From a virus: DNA of 39,538 nt. This document shows, piece after piece, positions 26,523 through 38,402 of this stretch. The position numbers were made by a program, and so were the translations under genes. The DNA is taken from positions 1 to 39,538 of the IMG/VR virus record IMGVR_UViG_3300008120_000301; one strand, given 5' to 3'. The notes under the pieces are model-generated. The model worked only from the letters and a program-made list of their open reading frames with translations. It was not told the origin of the DNA and made no database searches. Position 1 is the first letter of the stretch. Each line of letters starts with the position of its first letter.

Positions 26523-26755
26523 ATGATGTCCTATCTAATCGTGAAGATGAATATGGCGATGCGTTAGAAAACTTTGAAACCATTGGCAAGATATGGGGCG
26601 CGCTTTTAGGCATTGACCCAATTAGACCATGGGAAGTTGCATTGATGATGGATAGCCTTAAAACTGTGCGACTATTCAAGAACCCTACACATGAAGATAG
26701 TTGGTTAGATAAACAAGGCTACATCTACCACGGACATGACATAGTGACCCGATGA
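26510..26755 (+). CDS. DUF6378-like phage protein
   Basis: 81 residues from ATG 26510 (GAGG upstream; a GTG at 26504 is also in frame). The pattern NREDEYGDALENFETIGKIWGALLG...PWEVALMMDSLKTVRLFKNPTHEDSWLDKQGYI is typical of a widespread family of small phage proteins (DUF6378) of unknown biochemistry, often beside nucleotide and DNA metabolism genes. It overlaps the preceding gene by 13 bases and the next by ATGA. Confidence 0.7.
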   Translation: MSKVDDVLSNREDEYGDALENFETIGKIWGALLGIDPIRPWEVALMMDSLKTVRLFKNPTHEDSWLDKQGYIYHGHDIVTR

Positions 26756-27789
26756 GCCTTGAAGATAGTCTAAAAAATCTACCTGAAGGCGTTGAATCTG
26801 AAGATGTAAAAGAATTACGCAATGCGCTGTTCCGTATGCAAAAACAACTTATCAAAGCCAAAACCAAAACAGAAGATTTGGTAGAAGCAACACATCAAGC
26901 CGCCTATGATGCAATGCTTGCCATGGGGCCTATAAAACCTGTCATGGAACCAAAGGTGGCAAAAGGTGGCAAAGGTAAGCCTGAAGTAGCGCTGTGGCAC
27001 ATGACAGATTGGCAGGGCGCAAAGAAAACAAATTCCTATAATTCTGAAGTAATGCGCAGGCGTGTAATGGAGTTTGCAGAAAAGGCTGTACGCATCACTG
27101 AAATACAAAGAGCAGACCACCCGGTAAAAGAGTGTTACATACTTTTTGGCGGCGATATGGTTGAAGGTTTATTTAATTTCCCAGGACAAGCATTTGAAAT
27201 TGATGCCACACTATTTGAGCAATATGTAAATGTAAGCAGACTTTGCGTAGATGTCGTGCGTTATGCGCTCGCACACTATGACAAAGTTACGGTAGTTCCT
27301 GAATGGGGTAATCATGGGCGTATTGGAAGCAAAAGAGATAATGTTCCTCGTTCTGACAACTTTGACCGTATGTGTTATGAATTGGCACGCCAGTTACTTG
27401 CAGGAGAGAAGCGCCTTACCTGGCAAGAATGTCCTGATGACATTCAGAGGGTGCAAATCGGAGAGTATCGCGCACTCGTTATTCATGGTGATGAGGTTGG
27501 TCGTAATGGTTTTGCATCTCCATCAACGATTGTCCAACACATCAATAGATGGCGCAGTGGCTCTTACCCATGGGAATTCAGAGATGTCTATATTGGTCAT
27601 TACCACACCCATGCAGAATGGGCGCTTGCAAATGGATTGGGCAGTGTTTACCAAACTGGTTCTACCGAATCAGACAACCGTTATGCAGGTGTCATGCTCG
27701 CCGCGACTGCGACACCAAGTCAAAGATTGCATTTCATTGACCCAATAAAAGGGCGTGTGACTGCAGGATACAAAGTATGGTTGGATTAA
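26752..27789 (+). CDS. Metallophosphoesterase, DNA exonuclease-like
   Basis: 345 residues. A helical N-terminus (1-75) precedes a calcineurin-type phosphoesterase core: TDWQ (D86), GGDMVEG (133-139), GNHGR (186-190), IHGDE (H245) and GHYHTH (282-287). The set of Asp/Asn/His motifs matches Mre11/SbcD-like two-metal enzymes, although the first motif is DWQ rather than DxH. Such phage enzymes probably process DNA ends. In the same block lie Erf-like, Cas4-like and RusA proteins, a coherent recombination set. Confidence 0.8.
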   Translation: MSLEDSLKNLPEGVESEDVKELRNALFRMQKQLIKAKTKTEDLVEATHQAAYDAMLAMGPIKPVMEPKVAKGGKGKPEVALWHMTDWQGAKKTNSYNSEVMRRRVMEFAEKAVRITEIQRADHPVKECYILFGGDMVEGLFNFPGQAFEIDATLFEQYVNVSRLCVDVVRYALAHYDKVTVVPEWGNHGRIGSKRDNVPRSDNFDRMCYELARQLLAGEKRLTWQECPDDIQRVQIGEYRALVIHGDEVGRNGFASPSTIVQHINRWRSGSYPWEFRDVYIGHYHTHAEWALANGLGSVYQTGSTESDNRYAGVMLAATATPSQRLHFIDPIKGRVTAGYKVWLD

Positions 27790-28010: not shown

Positions 28011-28202
28011 TCATTCTTCATCTTCTAAATCAAAGTCCTCTGACCGAATATCCATACCACTGTTTTTGCAGTAGTCCATAGTTGCGATAAAACTGGTCAT
28101 AGCCCGATTGGTTAAATCCTGCATCATGTCGGGATATTGAAAGTCAGCCTCCACCTCAATGATGAGATTGAAAAGGCTAATGTGAACTCTTGCTTGTGCC
28201 AT
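28011..28202 (-). CDS. Small acidic protein, the only minus-strand gene
   Basis: 63 residues, reading leftwards from ATG at 28202. A G-rich sequence (AGGGGG on the coding strand) sits 5 bases before the start. The N-terminus alternates hydrophobic residues (ARVHISLFNLIIEVEADF), and the C-terminus is very acidic (SEDFDLEDEE). No family recognised. An isolated opposite-strand gene at an operon boundary is often regulatory in phages, but nothing in the sequence proves this. Confidence 0.6.
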   Translation of the reverse strand: MAQARVHISLFNLIIEVEADFQYPDMMQDLTNRAMTSFIATMDYCKNSGMDIRSEDFDLEDEE

Positions 28203-28204
28203 GA

Positions 28205-28220
28205 GGACCCCCTGGACCCC
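28205..28220. repeat. GGACCCC direct repeat
   Basis: Two copies of GGACCCC (28205-28211 and 28214-28220) separated by CT lie immediately upstream of the minus-strand gene and overlap its ribosome site. The interval 28203-28348 has no gene; it holds this repeat, a candidate promoter and a hairpin. Confidence 0.55.
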
Positions 28221-28271
28221 CGATTATTGCACTGGTTATGAATAATTTTTCCGACACGCCGCTTTGGGGTA

Positions 28272-28299
28272 TTCCGTAATGTCAGTGAGTCGGTATAAG
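28272..28299 (+). promoter_or_regulatory. Candidate promoter of the recombination/replication operon
   Basis: TATAAG at 28294-28299 with TTCCGT at 28272-28277, 16 bases upstream. The -35 is poor. It lies 50 bases before the Erf-like gene in the only sizeable non-coding interval of the region. Confidence 0.3.
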
Positions 28300-28313
28300 G
28301 TCTGCCTACCCAT

Positions 28314-28327
28314 GGGGCGACTGCCCC
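28314..28327 (+). ncRNA. Small GC-rich 5'-leader hairpin
   Basis: GGGGC (28314-28318), loop GACT, GCCCC (28323-28327). It begins 20 bases after the start of the TATAAG box and so would lie near the 5' end of the transcript, like the two promoter-linked hairpins at 32621 and 32875. Confidence 0.4.
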
Positions 28328-28348
28328 CCGACAGAAAGAAGGCAAAGA

Positions 28349-28921
28349 ATGGCATTTGATTTATCCCACTACGAAACCGTAGCGGAAAGATTACAACGGG
28401 CCTTAAATGACCACCCTGATTTGCGATTGATTACAGAGATTGTGGACATTGCGCGTGACCCGCAAACAAACCGACCATTGCAATATGTAATCAAAGCATC
28501 TTTATATTACGGTGATGTTTTGAAGGCTGTTGATTACGCTGAAGAAATGGTGGGCAGTAGCCACATCAACAAAACTAGCGCCCTTGAAAACGCCTCTACA
28601 AGCGCCGCAGGGCGTGCATTAAGCCTTGCGGGTTATATGGGTACAGACCCCAACACAAAGAAACCTGTACGCCCTACAAAGCAAGATATGGAGAAAGCAG
28701 AACGCGTTAAAGATGTAACTGCCGCGCCCGTAATTCTTGCGCCAAAAGTTACAGAGCAACAATATGCAGAGGCAGAAACAGCGATTGCATTGGCTGACAC
28801 TGCCGCTTCATTAGACGCATTGAAAAAAATCTACAACCAATACGCAACACTCAAAGACATCAAAGTAAACGGAACAACATTGTTGGACACCGTGAATAAG
28901 AAGAAAAGAGAGTTTGTATGA
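28349..28921 (+). CDS. Erf-like / ssDNA-binding recombination protein
   Basis: 190 residues. The N-terminal 95 residues follow the pattern of actinophage Erf-like or single-strand DNA-binding proteins: LNDHPDLRLITEIVDIARD, YVIKASLYYGD, and the hallmark INKTSALENASTSAAGRALSLAGYMG. The C-terminal half is a helical, Ala-rich region. Expected role is annealing of DNA single strands during recombination-dependent replication. It is the first gene of the plus-strand block and overlaps the next by ATGA. Confidence 0.68.
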   Translation: MAFDLSHYETVAERLQRALNDHPDLRLITEIVDIARDPQTNRPLQYVIKASLYYGDVLKAVDYAEEMVGSSHINKTSALENASTSAAGRALSLAGYMGTDPNTKKPVRPTKQDMEKAERVKDVTAAPVILAPKVTEQQYAEAETAIALADTAASLDALKKIYNQYATLKDIKVNGTTLLDTVNKKKREFV

Positions 28922-29697: not shown

Positions 29698-30362
29698 TTG
29701 ATTTACAAGATATGGTTGTGAAGTCGTTGCGCGGATATGACTCAAGCCGCTCACGCTCTACACAAGTAGAAGTTGGGCCATCATCATTGGGCGGGTGTTC
29801 TCGCCGCGTGTGGCACGACCTAAAGCAAACGCAAAAACTCAATCAAACCGAAACCTTGGGAGCAATCCTAGGAACATTTATTCACTCAGGAATGGAAAAG
29901 GCTATGCAACGCCTGGACCCTTTTGGAGATAACTTTCTGATTGAGATTGAATTGAATCACCCTGAAATCAAAGGTCACTGCGATTTATTTATTAAAGACC
30001 TTGGGTTAGTGGTTGATTTCAAGACCAAAACCAAAAGCAGTATGCGCTATCTTGGAAAAGACCAGGAGCAATGGCAGATACAGGTTTATGGTTGGTTACT
30101 AGAACAACAGGGCTACGATGTTAAAGGCGTGGCATTAGTTGGAATTCCCCGTGATGGCAAGATGACAGATATAAAAATTTGGCAAGATGATTACAAACCG
30201 CATGTTGCAGAAGAAGCGTTGCAATGGCTACGCAATCTAAAGCAATGGGCGGCAACAGATGATGCGCCTCCACAGCCGCAACTCAATGTTTCATTTTGCA
30301 AAGATTACTGCCCATACTTTGACCCGTCAGGAGAAATCGGTTGCCCCAGTACGATGAAATAG
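29694..30362 (+). CDS. Cas4/RecB-like PD-(D/E)XK exonuclease with iron-sulfur cysteines
   Basis: 222 residues from GTG 29694. Cas4-like order: GPSSLGGCSRRVW with C35; FIHSGME (H64); GHCDLFI (D97); VVDFKTK (D108, K110); QIQVYGW (Q129); and a C-terminal cluster FCKDYCPYFD...GCPS (C202, C206, C217). The four cysteines would hold a 4Fe-4S cluster and the Asp/Lys residues a nuclease metal site. No Cas1/Cas2 or CRISPR array is present, so a role in DNA end processing with the Erf-like protein is more likely than spacer acquisition. Confidence 0.8.
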   Translation: MIDLQDMVVKSLRGYDSSRSRSTQVEVGPSSLGGCSRRVWHDLKQTQKLNQTETLGAILGTFIHSGMEKAMQRLDPFGDNFLIEIELNHPEIKGHCDLFIKDLGLVVDFKTKTKSSMRYLGKDQEQWQIQVYGWLLEQQGYDVKGVALVGIPRDGKMTDIKIWQDDYKPHVAEEALQWLRNLKQWAATDDAPPQPQLNVSFCKDYCPYFDPSGEIGCPSTMK

Positions 30363-30682
30363 ATTGGGAAAAAGCCGCCTGTAGAGGCTCAATCTATACA
30401 GACATTTTCTACAATGTAGAAGAAGAACGCAGTATTTTGGCATACGAATACATCAACGCATTGCGCACGATTTGTTTAGCGTGTCCGATATGGAAAGAGT
30501 GCCTGACCTACGCCATGGAACATGAGGACTATGGCGTATGGGGCGGCATGACAAGCATTGAGCGTTTTTCTTTCCGCAATCCTAAGAAGTATCCGAATCA
30601 ACAAAGGCGAGCGCTGTTTGCATTTGAAGAAGCGGGTATCAATTATGTAGAGATTATGGAGTGTGTCCGTGGAACCGATTAG
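30341..30682 (+). CDS. whiB: WhiB-family iron-sulfur transcription factor
   Basis: 113 residues from TTG 30341, with AGGAG (30329-30333) 7 bases upstream. WhiB signature: four cysteines, C14 (AACRG), C45 and C48 (ICLAC), C54 (KEC), followed by GVWGG (65-69) and TSIER. WhiB-like proteins bind the primary sigma factor and are found only in Actinobacteria and their phages, which fixes the host phylum. Mycobacteriophage TM4 WhiB is known to repress host whiB2. The basic C-terminus (NPKKYPNQQRR) may contact DNA. Overlaps the nuclease gene by 22 bases. Confidence 0.9.
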   Translation: MPQYDEIDWEKAACRGSIYTDIFYNVEEERSILAYEYINALRTICLACPIWKECLTYAMEHEDYGVWGGMTSIERFSFRNPKKYPNQQRRALFAFEEAGINYVEIMECVRGTD

Positions 30683-31951: not shown

Positions 31952-32143
31952 ATGGCAACGCTAGTTATTACAAAAGCAAGTAACATGCAATGCGGCGACA
32001 AAATAATGCAAAACAATAAAGTTTTTGAAGTGCAAAGTATTGATGGACCTGACCACACAGGAACTTATGATTTGCATGTTAAAGATGAACGCGGCAGAGA
32101 TAGATTTGTTATTGTGCAAGATTTAGTTACAATAATTATGTGA
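31952..32143 (+). CDS. Small beta-rich hypothetical protein
   Basis: 63 residues from ATG 31952 (AGGAG 6 bases upstream; a TTG at 31922 is also in frame). Sequence pattern CGDKIMQNNKVFEVQSIDGP...YDLHVKDERGRDRFVIVQDLVTI suggests a small SH3-like beta barrel. No known family. Its stop overlaps the GTG of rusA. Confidence 0.6.
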   Translation: MATLVITKASNMQCGDKIMQNNKVFEVQSIDGPDHTGTYDLHVKDERGRDRFVIVQDLVTIIM

Positions 32144-32529
32144 TAAATTTTTTTGTTGATGGCTTACCTGTTCCACAAGGGAGCATGAAAGTTATCAACG
32201 GCAGAGTCATTCATAACAAAGGCTCTGAACTTGCGGCATGGCGTAGCGCTGTTGCATTAACTGCAAGACAGTTTGGCGCTCGCCCATTAACCGACCCCAT
32301 TGAAATCCGAATTAAGTTCTATATGCCCAAGCCGCGCACTGTCAAGCGGCAATATCCCTCAGTTGCTCCTGACCTTGATAAATTGATTAGAGCGGTCCTA
32401 GACGGCCTAACAGCCATCGCCTATGTAGATGATGGCCAGGTGGTCCTAATCGCCGCTGAGAAGGCCTACGGAGAGCGTATAGGGGCAGAAATAACCGTAG
32501 GGGCATACGGATTAGAACAAATGTTCTAA
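32140..32529 (+). CDS. rusA: RusA-like Holliday junction resolvase
   Basis: 129 residues from GTG 32140. RusA hallmarks: LPVPQGSMKVINGRVIH at the start, FYMPKPRTVKRQYPSVAPDLDKLIRAVLDGLT (with the conserved D-x-D-K), and AYVDDGQVVLIAAEKAYG. The aspartates form the metal site that cuts four-way junctions; it would resolve recombination intermediates before packaging. Fits with the Erf-like and Cas4-like proteins upstream. Confidence 0.87.
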   Translation: MINFFVDGLPVPQGSMKVINGRVIHNKGSELAAWRSAVALTARQFGARPLTDPIEIRIKFYMPKPRTVKRQYPSVAPDLDKLIRAVLDGLTAIAYVDDGQVVLIAAEKAYGERIGAEITVGAYGLEQMF

Positions 32530-32582: not shown

Positions 32583-32611
32583 TTGCAAAAACTTTAACAC
32601 AGGACTATCTT
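32583..32611 (+). promoter_or_regulatory. Promoter P1, sigma-70 type
   Basis: TTGCAA (32583-32588), 17-base spacer, TATCTT (32606-32611). It lies in the 125-base gap after rusA. A second TTGCA copy (32571) precedes it by 12 bases. The same promoter layout recurs exactly 254 bases downstream as P2. Confidence 0.72.
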
Positions 32612-32644
32612 TCTCTTATCGGTTCAAAAGAACCCCAAGAGAAA
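32610..32644 (+). ncRNA. Leader hairpin linked to P1
   Basis: GGTTC (32621-32625), loop AAAA, GAACC (32630-32634), followed by CCAA. An outer arm pair TTTCTCTT (32610-32617) and AAGAGAAA (32637-32644) extends it at DNA level, but the left arm overlaps the -10. The inner stem starts 15 bases after the first base of the -10, so it would be almost at the mRNA 5' end. Confidence 0.65.
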
Positions 32645-32654
32645 GGCAAGACAG

Positions 32655-32804
32655 ATGACAAGCAAGACAGTAACACTAGATGCAAATGAAGCATCAATCC
32701 TCGCAGTTTTAGCAAAGCAATATGTGATTGACAATGACGCAGATTTGACCGAAAACAATAAGTTTTATTGGAACCTGCTCATCACAAAACTAGCGGCTCT
32801 ATAA
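32655..32804 (+). CDS. Small hypothetical protein driven by P1
   Basis: 49 residues, ATG 32655, weak ribosome site (AAAGG about 10 bases upstream). Sequence includes TLDANEASILAVLAKQYVIDNDADLTENN and LLITKLAAL; helical, no cysteines, no membrane segment. No family recognised. It is the sole gene between two matched promoter-hairpin modules. Confidence 0.6.
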   Translation: MTSKTVTLDANEASILAVLAKQYVIDNDADLTENNKFYWNLLITKLAAL

Positions 32805-32836
32805 ACAACACGCCGAAAAAAATTTAATAAAAATAC

Positions 32837-32865
32837 TTGCAAAATCTTCCCCAAAAGACCATAAT
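32837..32865 (+). promoter_or_regulatory. Promoter P2, sigma-70 type
   Basis: TTGCAA (32837-32842), 17-base spacer, CATAAT (32860-32865). The first 12 bases TTGCAAAATCTT differ from P1 only at one position. Spacing to its hairpin (15 bases from the -10 start) is identical to P1. Confidence 0.75.
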
Positions 32866-32874
32866 TATCTCAAC

Positions 32875-32889
32875 GGGTCATAAAGACCC
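32875..32889 (+). ncRNA. Leader hairpin linked to P2
   Basis: GGGTC (32875-32879), loop ATAAA, GACCC (32885-32889), followed by CAA. Compared with the P1 hairpin, the third pair is G-C instead of T-A: both bases changed, preserving the stem. Context CGG-k-TC...GA-m-CCCCAA is conserved in both. Confidence 0.68.
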
Positions 32890-32909
32890 CAACAACATGG
32901 AGGCAACAA

Positions 32910-37880: not shown

Positions 37881-37886
37881 ATGTAT

Positions 37887-38402
37887 ATGGCATTAGACAA
37901 AGACGGATTGGCTCAGTTAAAGCGCGAGAACCGCGCACTTGAGTTACGCCATCAACACGGTATGACTTTTGCCGCTATCGCTCAAGAATTAGGTTACGCA
38001 ACAACTGCAGGCGCACACCAGGCATATCGCAGAGCATTGAAGCGCGTTGAGATTGCAGAGCCTGAAGAATACTTAAAGGCTGACCTTGAGCGCCTAGATG
38101 AGATGACACAGGTTTATTGGCAATCAGCATTACAAGGCAATCTAAGAAGCGCAGACATGGTGTTACGCATTATGCAAAAGCGCGCAGATTTCTTGGGCCT
38201 AGATGCACCAAAGAAAGTACAAGCGGAGGTTGTGAACTATGACGGACATGGAAGCCTTGATGCGGAAGTTACAAACCTCGCCCGAATTATTGACTACATT
38301 GAAGGCGTTGCCGCAGACATCACAACCCTCCCTGAACAGCAAGATACGAGCGAGCAGAATAATTTGGCAAAGACTGGCAAGAAAAGAGCAATTACCTCCT
38401 GA
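37887..38402 (+). CDS. terS: Terminase small subunit
   Basis: 171 residues. ATG 37887 is preferred over ATG 37881 since the latter would lie upstream of the predicted transcript start; no ribosome site precedes either. The N-terminal domain is helix-turn-helix (LELRHQHGMTFAAIAQELGYATTAGAHQAYRRALKRV), followed by helices for oligomerisation (ADLERLDEMTQVYWQSALQGNLRSADMVLRIMQKRADFLGLDA), as in TerS DNA-recognition subunits. The last 164 bases overlap terL in another frame. Confidence 0.83.
   Translation: MALDKDGLAQLKRENRALELRHQHGMTFAAIAQELGYATTAGAHQAYRRALKRVEIAEPEEYLKADLERLDEMTQVYWQSALQGNLRSADMVLRIMQKRADFLGLDAPKKVQAEVVNYDGHGSLDAEVTNLARIIDYIEGVAADITTLPEQQDTSEQNNLAKTGKKRAITS

Follow-up and report, generated by a model that had tools for sequence, protein, structure and literature searches.

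P1 and P2, two promoters in the window (the whole 39,538-bp IMG/VR virus record analysed here, GC content 44.7%), are on balance best regarded as promoter-leader modules whose transcripts begin with a hairpin, and the one directly behind the rusA-like gene (P1; site A in related genomes) may in addition lock the translation of read-through RNA. This reading is supported by the conservation, the covariation and the geometry of the module, by an outer complementarity that is specific to site A, and by the predicted masking of the SD. The features involved are listed in Table 1.

Table 1. Positions of the module elements, neighbouring genes and a further hairpin in the window.
Feature	Position	Strand	Basis and details
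28314 hairpin, GGGGC-GACT-GCCCC	28314..28327	+	35 nt before ATG 28349; kept in relatives L006-L009, L011, L013, L017
WhiB-like gene	30341..30682	+	PF02467 at 30368-30565, E 1.4e-14
rusA-like Holliday-junction resolvase gene	32140..32529	+	Pfam PF05866, E 7.5e-16; PHROG 140
P1 −35 hexamer, TTGCAA	32583..32588	+	sequence
P1 −10 hexamer, TATCTT	32606..32611	+	sequence; start predicted at about A32618 from the usual spacing
P1 outer stem, 5′ arm, UCUUUCUCUU	32608..32617	+	fold, arm-swap test; between −10 and predicted +1
P1 inner hairpin, GGTTC-AAAA-GAACC	32621..32634	+	sequence, fold, covariation at orthologous sites
P1 outer stem, 3′ arm, AAGAGAAAGG	32637..32646	+	fold; holds SD AAAGG 32642-32646
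49-aa gene behind P1	32655..32804	+	translation
P2 −35 hexamer, TTGCAA	32837..32842	+	sequence, promoter scan
P2 −10 hexamer, CATAAT	32860..32865	+	sequence, promoter scan; start predicted at about A32872
P2 inner hairpin, GGGTC-ATAAA-GACCC	32875..32889	+	fold; outer stem absent
117-aa gene behind P2	32910..33263	+	ORF list; SD GGAGG 32899-32903

The WhiB-like gene of the window is also present in all 22 related records tested and, among 14 control genomes, only in Corynebacterium glutamicum, which makes an actinobacterial host very probable. Cultured 'Ca. Planktophila' phages, whose size and GC content equal those of the window, encode WhiB too (PMC10202952). The rusA-like gene is the conserved upstream neighbour of P1 and the likely source of read-through RNA, and a scan of the + strand listed no terminator-like sites between the two. 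The 49-aa gene behind P1 gave no match in Pfam and PHROG searches, the 117-aa gene behind P2 has relatives at 93% and 50% identity, and neither was assigned to a known family. Near-identical DNA was not found when a phage collection was searched with the window. Elsewhere in the window, the exonuclease encoded at 26752-27789 is closest to that of Actinomycetia phage DSL-LC01, a 129-kb lake phage (46% at the amino acid level), a likeness that links small with large freshwater actinophages. The region 37881-38402 received the PHROG 645 name 'RNase E', which may be misleading; in Pfam it shows only a weak similarity to helix-turn-helix/sigma region 4.

Direct reading of the sequence confirms the twin −35/−10/hairpin units of the preliminary description, offset by 254 bp, together with the 17-bp spacers and the 15 bp from the start of the −10 hexamer to the stem at both P1 and P2. 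The shared spacing extends as far as the 5′ arm of the hairpin and ends there, since the loops comprise 4 nt in P1 and 5 nt in P2. The inner hairpins begin 3 nt after the predicted +1 and fold with −5.8 kcal/mol (P1) and −8.1 kcal/mol (P2), the latter value being the same in long and short RNA. When both strands of the window are scanned, the full pattern, consisting of a TTG, a spacer of 16-18 bp, a −10 element, a hairpin 15-17 nt from the start of the −10, an SD and a start codon, is satisfied only by P1 and P2; first-order Markov sequences gave 0.00 matches per strand, rising to 0.4 once the requirement for a −35 element was dropped. The exactness of the 254-bp offset, to which weight had been given earlier, is not supported as a meaningful feature. 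In relatives the distance between P1 and P2 amounts to 499, 515, 358, 354, 521, 512, 621, 362 and 374 bp, because the intervening genes differ, and this spread of 354-621 bp in close relatives rules out a 254-bp periodicity. A terminator reading was likewise rejected: intrinsic terminators combine a GC-rich hairpin with a U tract, whereas the hairpins of P1 and P2 are followed by CCAAGAG and CAACAAC, respectively, and are absent from the + strand terminator scan. An Rfam search of the window returned no family above its gathering score, the best match at the module site being an insignificant one to tmRNA (7.7 bits vs 47).

Two overlapping RusA-based searches of viral contigs, yielding 22 and then 80 loci, provided 84 loci for examination, and a promoter with a hairpin was found behind rusA in every one of them (82 by script and two, L124 and L133, by eye). 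Site A comprises 71 distinct leaders and 20 distinct inner stems, all of them Watson-Crick paired in a search that admitted Watson-Crick pairs only, G-U pairs being outside its reach. The stems, 4-8 in length, include GGTTC, GGTCC, GGATC, GGGTC, GGGGC, GGGAG, GGGGG, GGGAAA and GAGAGCC, as well as GCCC and GCCCCA with reversed polarity. No letters of stem or loop are conserved across lineages; the loops are mostly of 3-6 nt, frequently A-rich, and include GNRA loops (GAAA, GGAA). The start codon, in some leaders a GTG or TTG chosen by the script, lies mostly 27-37 nt from the start of the stem with a peak at 33, and, of 30 representative leaders, 22 have a TTG with a spacer of 17 or 18.

Loops of 4 and 5 nt could not be placed in one register by MAFFT, and covariation was therefore counted by script and within one equal-length clade (A6). 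In this clade the inner stem is 100% paired, two pairs have changed on both sides, and the covariation is 0.234 vs 0.118 for shuffled alignments, with none of 500 shuffles reaching the observed value. The paired change first noticed between the stems of P1 and P2 is thus genuine covariation of a promoter-tied hairpin, and it extends to 20 stems at the orthologous site. A broken stem behind a kept promoter, proposed beforehand as the refuting case, was sought in the related loci and not encountered. Mapped onto the RusA tree, the stem labels show at least 33 changes, some of them separating rows whose RusA is identical, so that whole modules have probably been exchanged rather than 33 point changes having arisen independently. 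In an all-against-all comparison the genes behind site A form many unrelated groups; judged from these sequences, the module belongs to the locus rather than to the gene behind it. In L020 (5380-5440) and L019 a tandem repeat of CCGTAATCTAT, 17 bp apart, runs across the −35/−10 spacer (CCGTAATCTATCTACCGTAATCTATTCC), so that one promoter contains two −10-like elements.

The module has a marked strand preference: 447 kb of relatives contain 67 matches at site A, 35 further matches in forward orientation and none in reverse, with 2 in Markov sequence. Full records hold 1-3 model matches each, which rules out many genome-wide copies. A general promoter feature of the host type is not supported either, as 400 kb from two small actinobacterial genomes (GC 46.5% and 42.5% in the first stretches) show no enrichment of the module: 10 matches were obtained vs 4 in Markov sequence, one of the 10 with a −35 and none resembling intergenic promoters. 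In Gordonia phage Vendetta and Arthrobacter phage Zucker, the nearest named phages by RusA, rusA is located in a tight operon that leaves no gap for the module, and Actinomycetia phage DSL-LC01 gave no match to R1, a model tuned to one lineage.

The hairpin at 28314, suggested earlier as a possible third member, is kept in relatives, likewise at 35 nt from the ATG, but its promoter spacing differs: it is separated by at least 18 nt from any −10-like site, a clear TTG −35 is absent, and it was not matched when the window was scanned with model R1. The region 28011-28349 is a divergent intergenic region, with a minus-strand gene at 28202-28011 and a plus-strand gene at 28349. The leader of the minus-strand gene has GGGGGTCCAGGGGGTCC immediately before the ATG; in relative L009 the same leader reads GGGGT-CCAGGAGG-ACCCC-ATG, the SD occupying the loop of the hairpin.

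In addition to the inner hairpin, P1 possesses an outer stem that was overlooked in the preliminary description and that alters the mechanistic reading. It consists of ten pairs, one of which is a wobble, and outer and inner stems together fold with −16.8 kcal/mol (z −4.6), a value that no shuffle equals. Across 26 representatives the summed longest helix of the outer arms is 122; 5000 swaps, in which arms were exchanged between lineages with their composition preserved, averaged 92 and never exceeded 119. The excess is gone when the arm is taken at least 12 nt further upstream, and it is not found at the other promoter-hairpin sites (own 2.57 vs swapped 2.98, p 0.99), to which P2 belongs. Strong outer arms (at least 6 pairs) are observed in 8 of the 26 representatives and typically end 3-5 nt before the inner stem, while the other 18 show fewer than 6 contiguous pairs. 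Because the register of the outer repeat adjoins the predicted +1 and the SD, an RNA rather than a DNA-only reading is favoured.

The consequence for the SD was evaluated from predicted pairing probabilities. At P1 the SD region is predicted to be unpaired with a probability of 0.99 when the transcript is local, but of 0.00 in the read-through RNA. For the representatives the predicted values are 0.60 in the local transcript, 0.21 in the read-through RNA and 0.32 in read-through RNA with swapped arms; comparing local with read-through RNA alone is unfair because the longer RNA has more pairing partners, and the comparison of own with swapped arms within the read-through RNA gives p 0.01. Contrary cases are L136, L086, L008 and L077, in which swapped arms hide the SD at least as well as the own arms.

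In the mechanism that we propose, a sigma-70-type promoter would start a transcript in which a short stable hairpin begins within 3-5 nt; the SD comes next, and the start codon lies about 33 nt downstream of the beginning of the stem. As the outermost 5′ element of the mRNA, the hairpin would likely shield this end from decay and insulate the ribosome site. At site A, the first promoter after the rusA operon, the strand from −10 to +1, predicted to stay untranscribed, is also complementary to the SD region; therefore, RNA reading through from rusA would fold into a long hairpin in which the SD is hidden. RNA started at P1 would not contain the 5′ arm, leaving the SD exposed and the gene translated, while RNA from P2 would form the inner hairpin only, with no outer-arm lock. 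We infer the start point, the read-through and the effects on stability and translation from the arrangement of these elements. The genes behind site A are exchanged while module and geometry stay constant, so that the module resembles a portable expression cassette, one that may tie translation to its own promoter.

The universal presence of the inner hairpin, including at P2 and at sites without an outer arm, together with the 18 weakly paired representatives, would also suit a simpler explanation, in which the inner 5′-terminal hairpin alone matters as a stabiliser or RBS insulator and the outer complementarity arises incidentally, from discriminators rich in pyrimidines meeting SD regions rich in purines. 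We consider this unlikely, though it deserves serious weight: none of the composition-preserving swaps reaches the pairing of the own arms, several arms depart from plain purine/pyrimidine tracts (TAATCTGT/ACAGATTA, TGGTCTA/TAGACCA), and the excess is confined to site A and to the segment adjoining +1. A start upstream of the outer arm, with the long hairpin present in every transcript and opened by some factor, would agree with long-range complementarity being what selection apparently keeps at site A. To this arrangement we attach the lowest probability of all, since a TTG-17/18-NANNNT promoter should begin its transcript immediately downstream of the arm, and the position at which strong arms typically end, shortly before the inner stem, also argues against it.

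The inverted repeats might instead serve as DNA operators to which a repressor of the phage or the host binds over +1, as their perfect Watson-Crick symmetry near +1 would allow; in cluster K mycobacteriophages the ESAS combines a SigA-like promoter with an inverted repeat for which a repressor role has been suggested (PMC11373665). The occurrence of 20 stems at one site and of two different stems within the window genome makes such operators highly improbable, and the arms of ESAS hold a consensus sequence, unlike the site-A stems. The flips in stem polarity, the loops of 3-6 nt and the GNRA loops point to RNA rather than to a DNA operator. Among the roles proposed earlier for a 5′-end hairpin, protection of the transcript and the blocking or timing of ribosome loading fit the data. 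The binding of one specific phage protein or host RNase to the RNA has in its favour the fixed position relative to promoter and SD and the frequency of A-rich loops, but it fits poorly because stem, loop and purine/pyrimidine polarity vary, with letters that differ across lineages and stem lengths of 4-8, and its chances are put as low as those of the operators. The partner of the hairpin may be a reader of structure only, e.g., an RNase III-type enzyme.

Freshwater actinobacteria, 'Ca. Nanopelagicales' among them, belong to the most abundant bacteria of lakes, and to our knowledge almost nothing is known about gene control in their phages. If P1 and P2 are promoter-leader modules as proposed above, the conserved leader allows promoters, start sites and start codons to be predicted in dozens of uncultured phages, and the module marks a hotspot of gene exchange. 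As a tentative generalisation, phages of freshwater actinobacteria could use a sequence-free leader cassette, defined by geometry and pairing only, through which genes recombined behind rusA are translated solely from their own promoter; the −10/discriminator DNA would double as the antisense arm to the SD, and the 5′ hairpin would protect the productive mRNA.

Several known systems share parts of this organization. The early-promoter/stem-loop cassettes (PeSL) of T-even phages, reportedly described by Arbiol et al. 2010 as intergenic and tied to small-gene exchange, likewise combine an intergenic promoter and a stem-loop with the exchange of small genes. The PeSL stem-loop is said to be terminator-like, whereas the hairpins described here have no U tract and are located at the 5′ end of the transcript. 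In the E. coli ompA and papA and the T7 gene 10 leaders, 5′-terminal stem-loops stabilise the mRNA, and 5′-end hairpins in other bacteria protect against 5′-end-dependent decay and isolate the ribosome site. References on the ompA and papA leaders are given in PMC3997798. Like these stem-loops, the hairpins of P1 and P2 are upstream of the SD, and they are predicted to lie at or within a few nucleotides of the 5′ end. Stabilisation has been shown for ompA, papA and T7 gene 10, which form no repeated phage promoter cassette, while here it is inferred.

The SAS/ESAS elements of cluster K mycobacteriophages are intergenic and contain a SigA-like promoter with 17-18 bp spacing and an inverted repeat shortly upstream of the start codon (PMC3203893, PMC11373665). 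The present modules resemble them in occurring in an actinophage, in joining a promoter to an inverted repeat and in lying in the non-structural half of the genome. In ESAS, however, the arms of a conserved repeat overlap the −35 and −10 elements, while in the P1/P2 module the hairpin begins after the −10 and its letters vary, so that both layout and letters differ. The ESAS of L169 and L170 (Adephagia, Anaya) is a long and nearly perfect palindrome whose left arm contains the TTGACA −35 and whose right arm contains the −10, so that the promoter itself extends across the inverted repeat.

A mechanistic parallel is provided by phage T4, where the longer transcripts of genes e, soc, 49 and I-TevI fold the SD/AUG into a helix that hides it (PMC3014915). 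In gene e, late promoters start inside the 5′ strand of this helix, and transcripts lacking the strand are translated well, while the read-through RNA with its hidden SD yields 100-fold less lysozyme (PMC3014915). At P1 the SD is predicted to be paired in the long RNA, as in gene e; the sequence puts the −10/discriminator within the arm and the predicted +1 after it, so that local transcripts would lack this strand. P2 and the other sites outside site A have no outer arm and do not share this putative lock. The T4 leaders depend on T4 late promoters and gene-specific structures, whereas here a sigma-70-type promoter is combined with a separate inner hairpin at the 5′ end, and a single module of strongly covarying sequence is reused with exchanged genes. 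The T4 principle, in which the arm of a hairpin that hides the SD contains the promoter, would thereby be generalised to a portable cassette.
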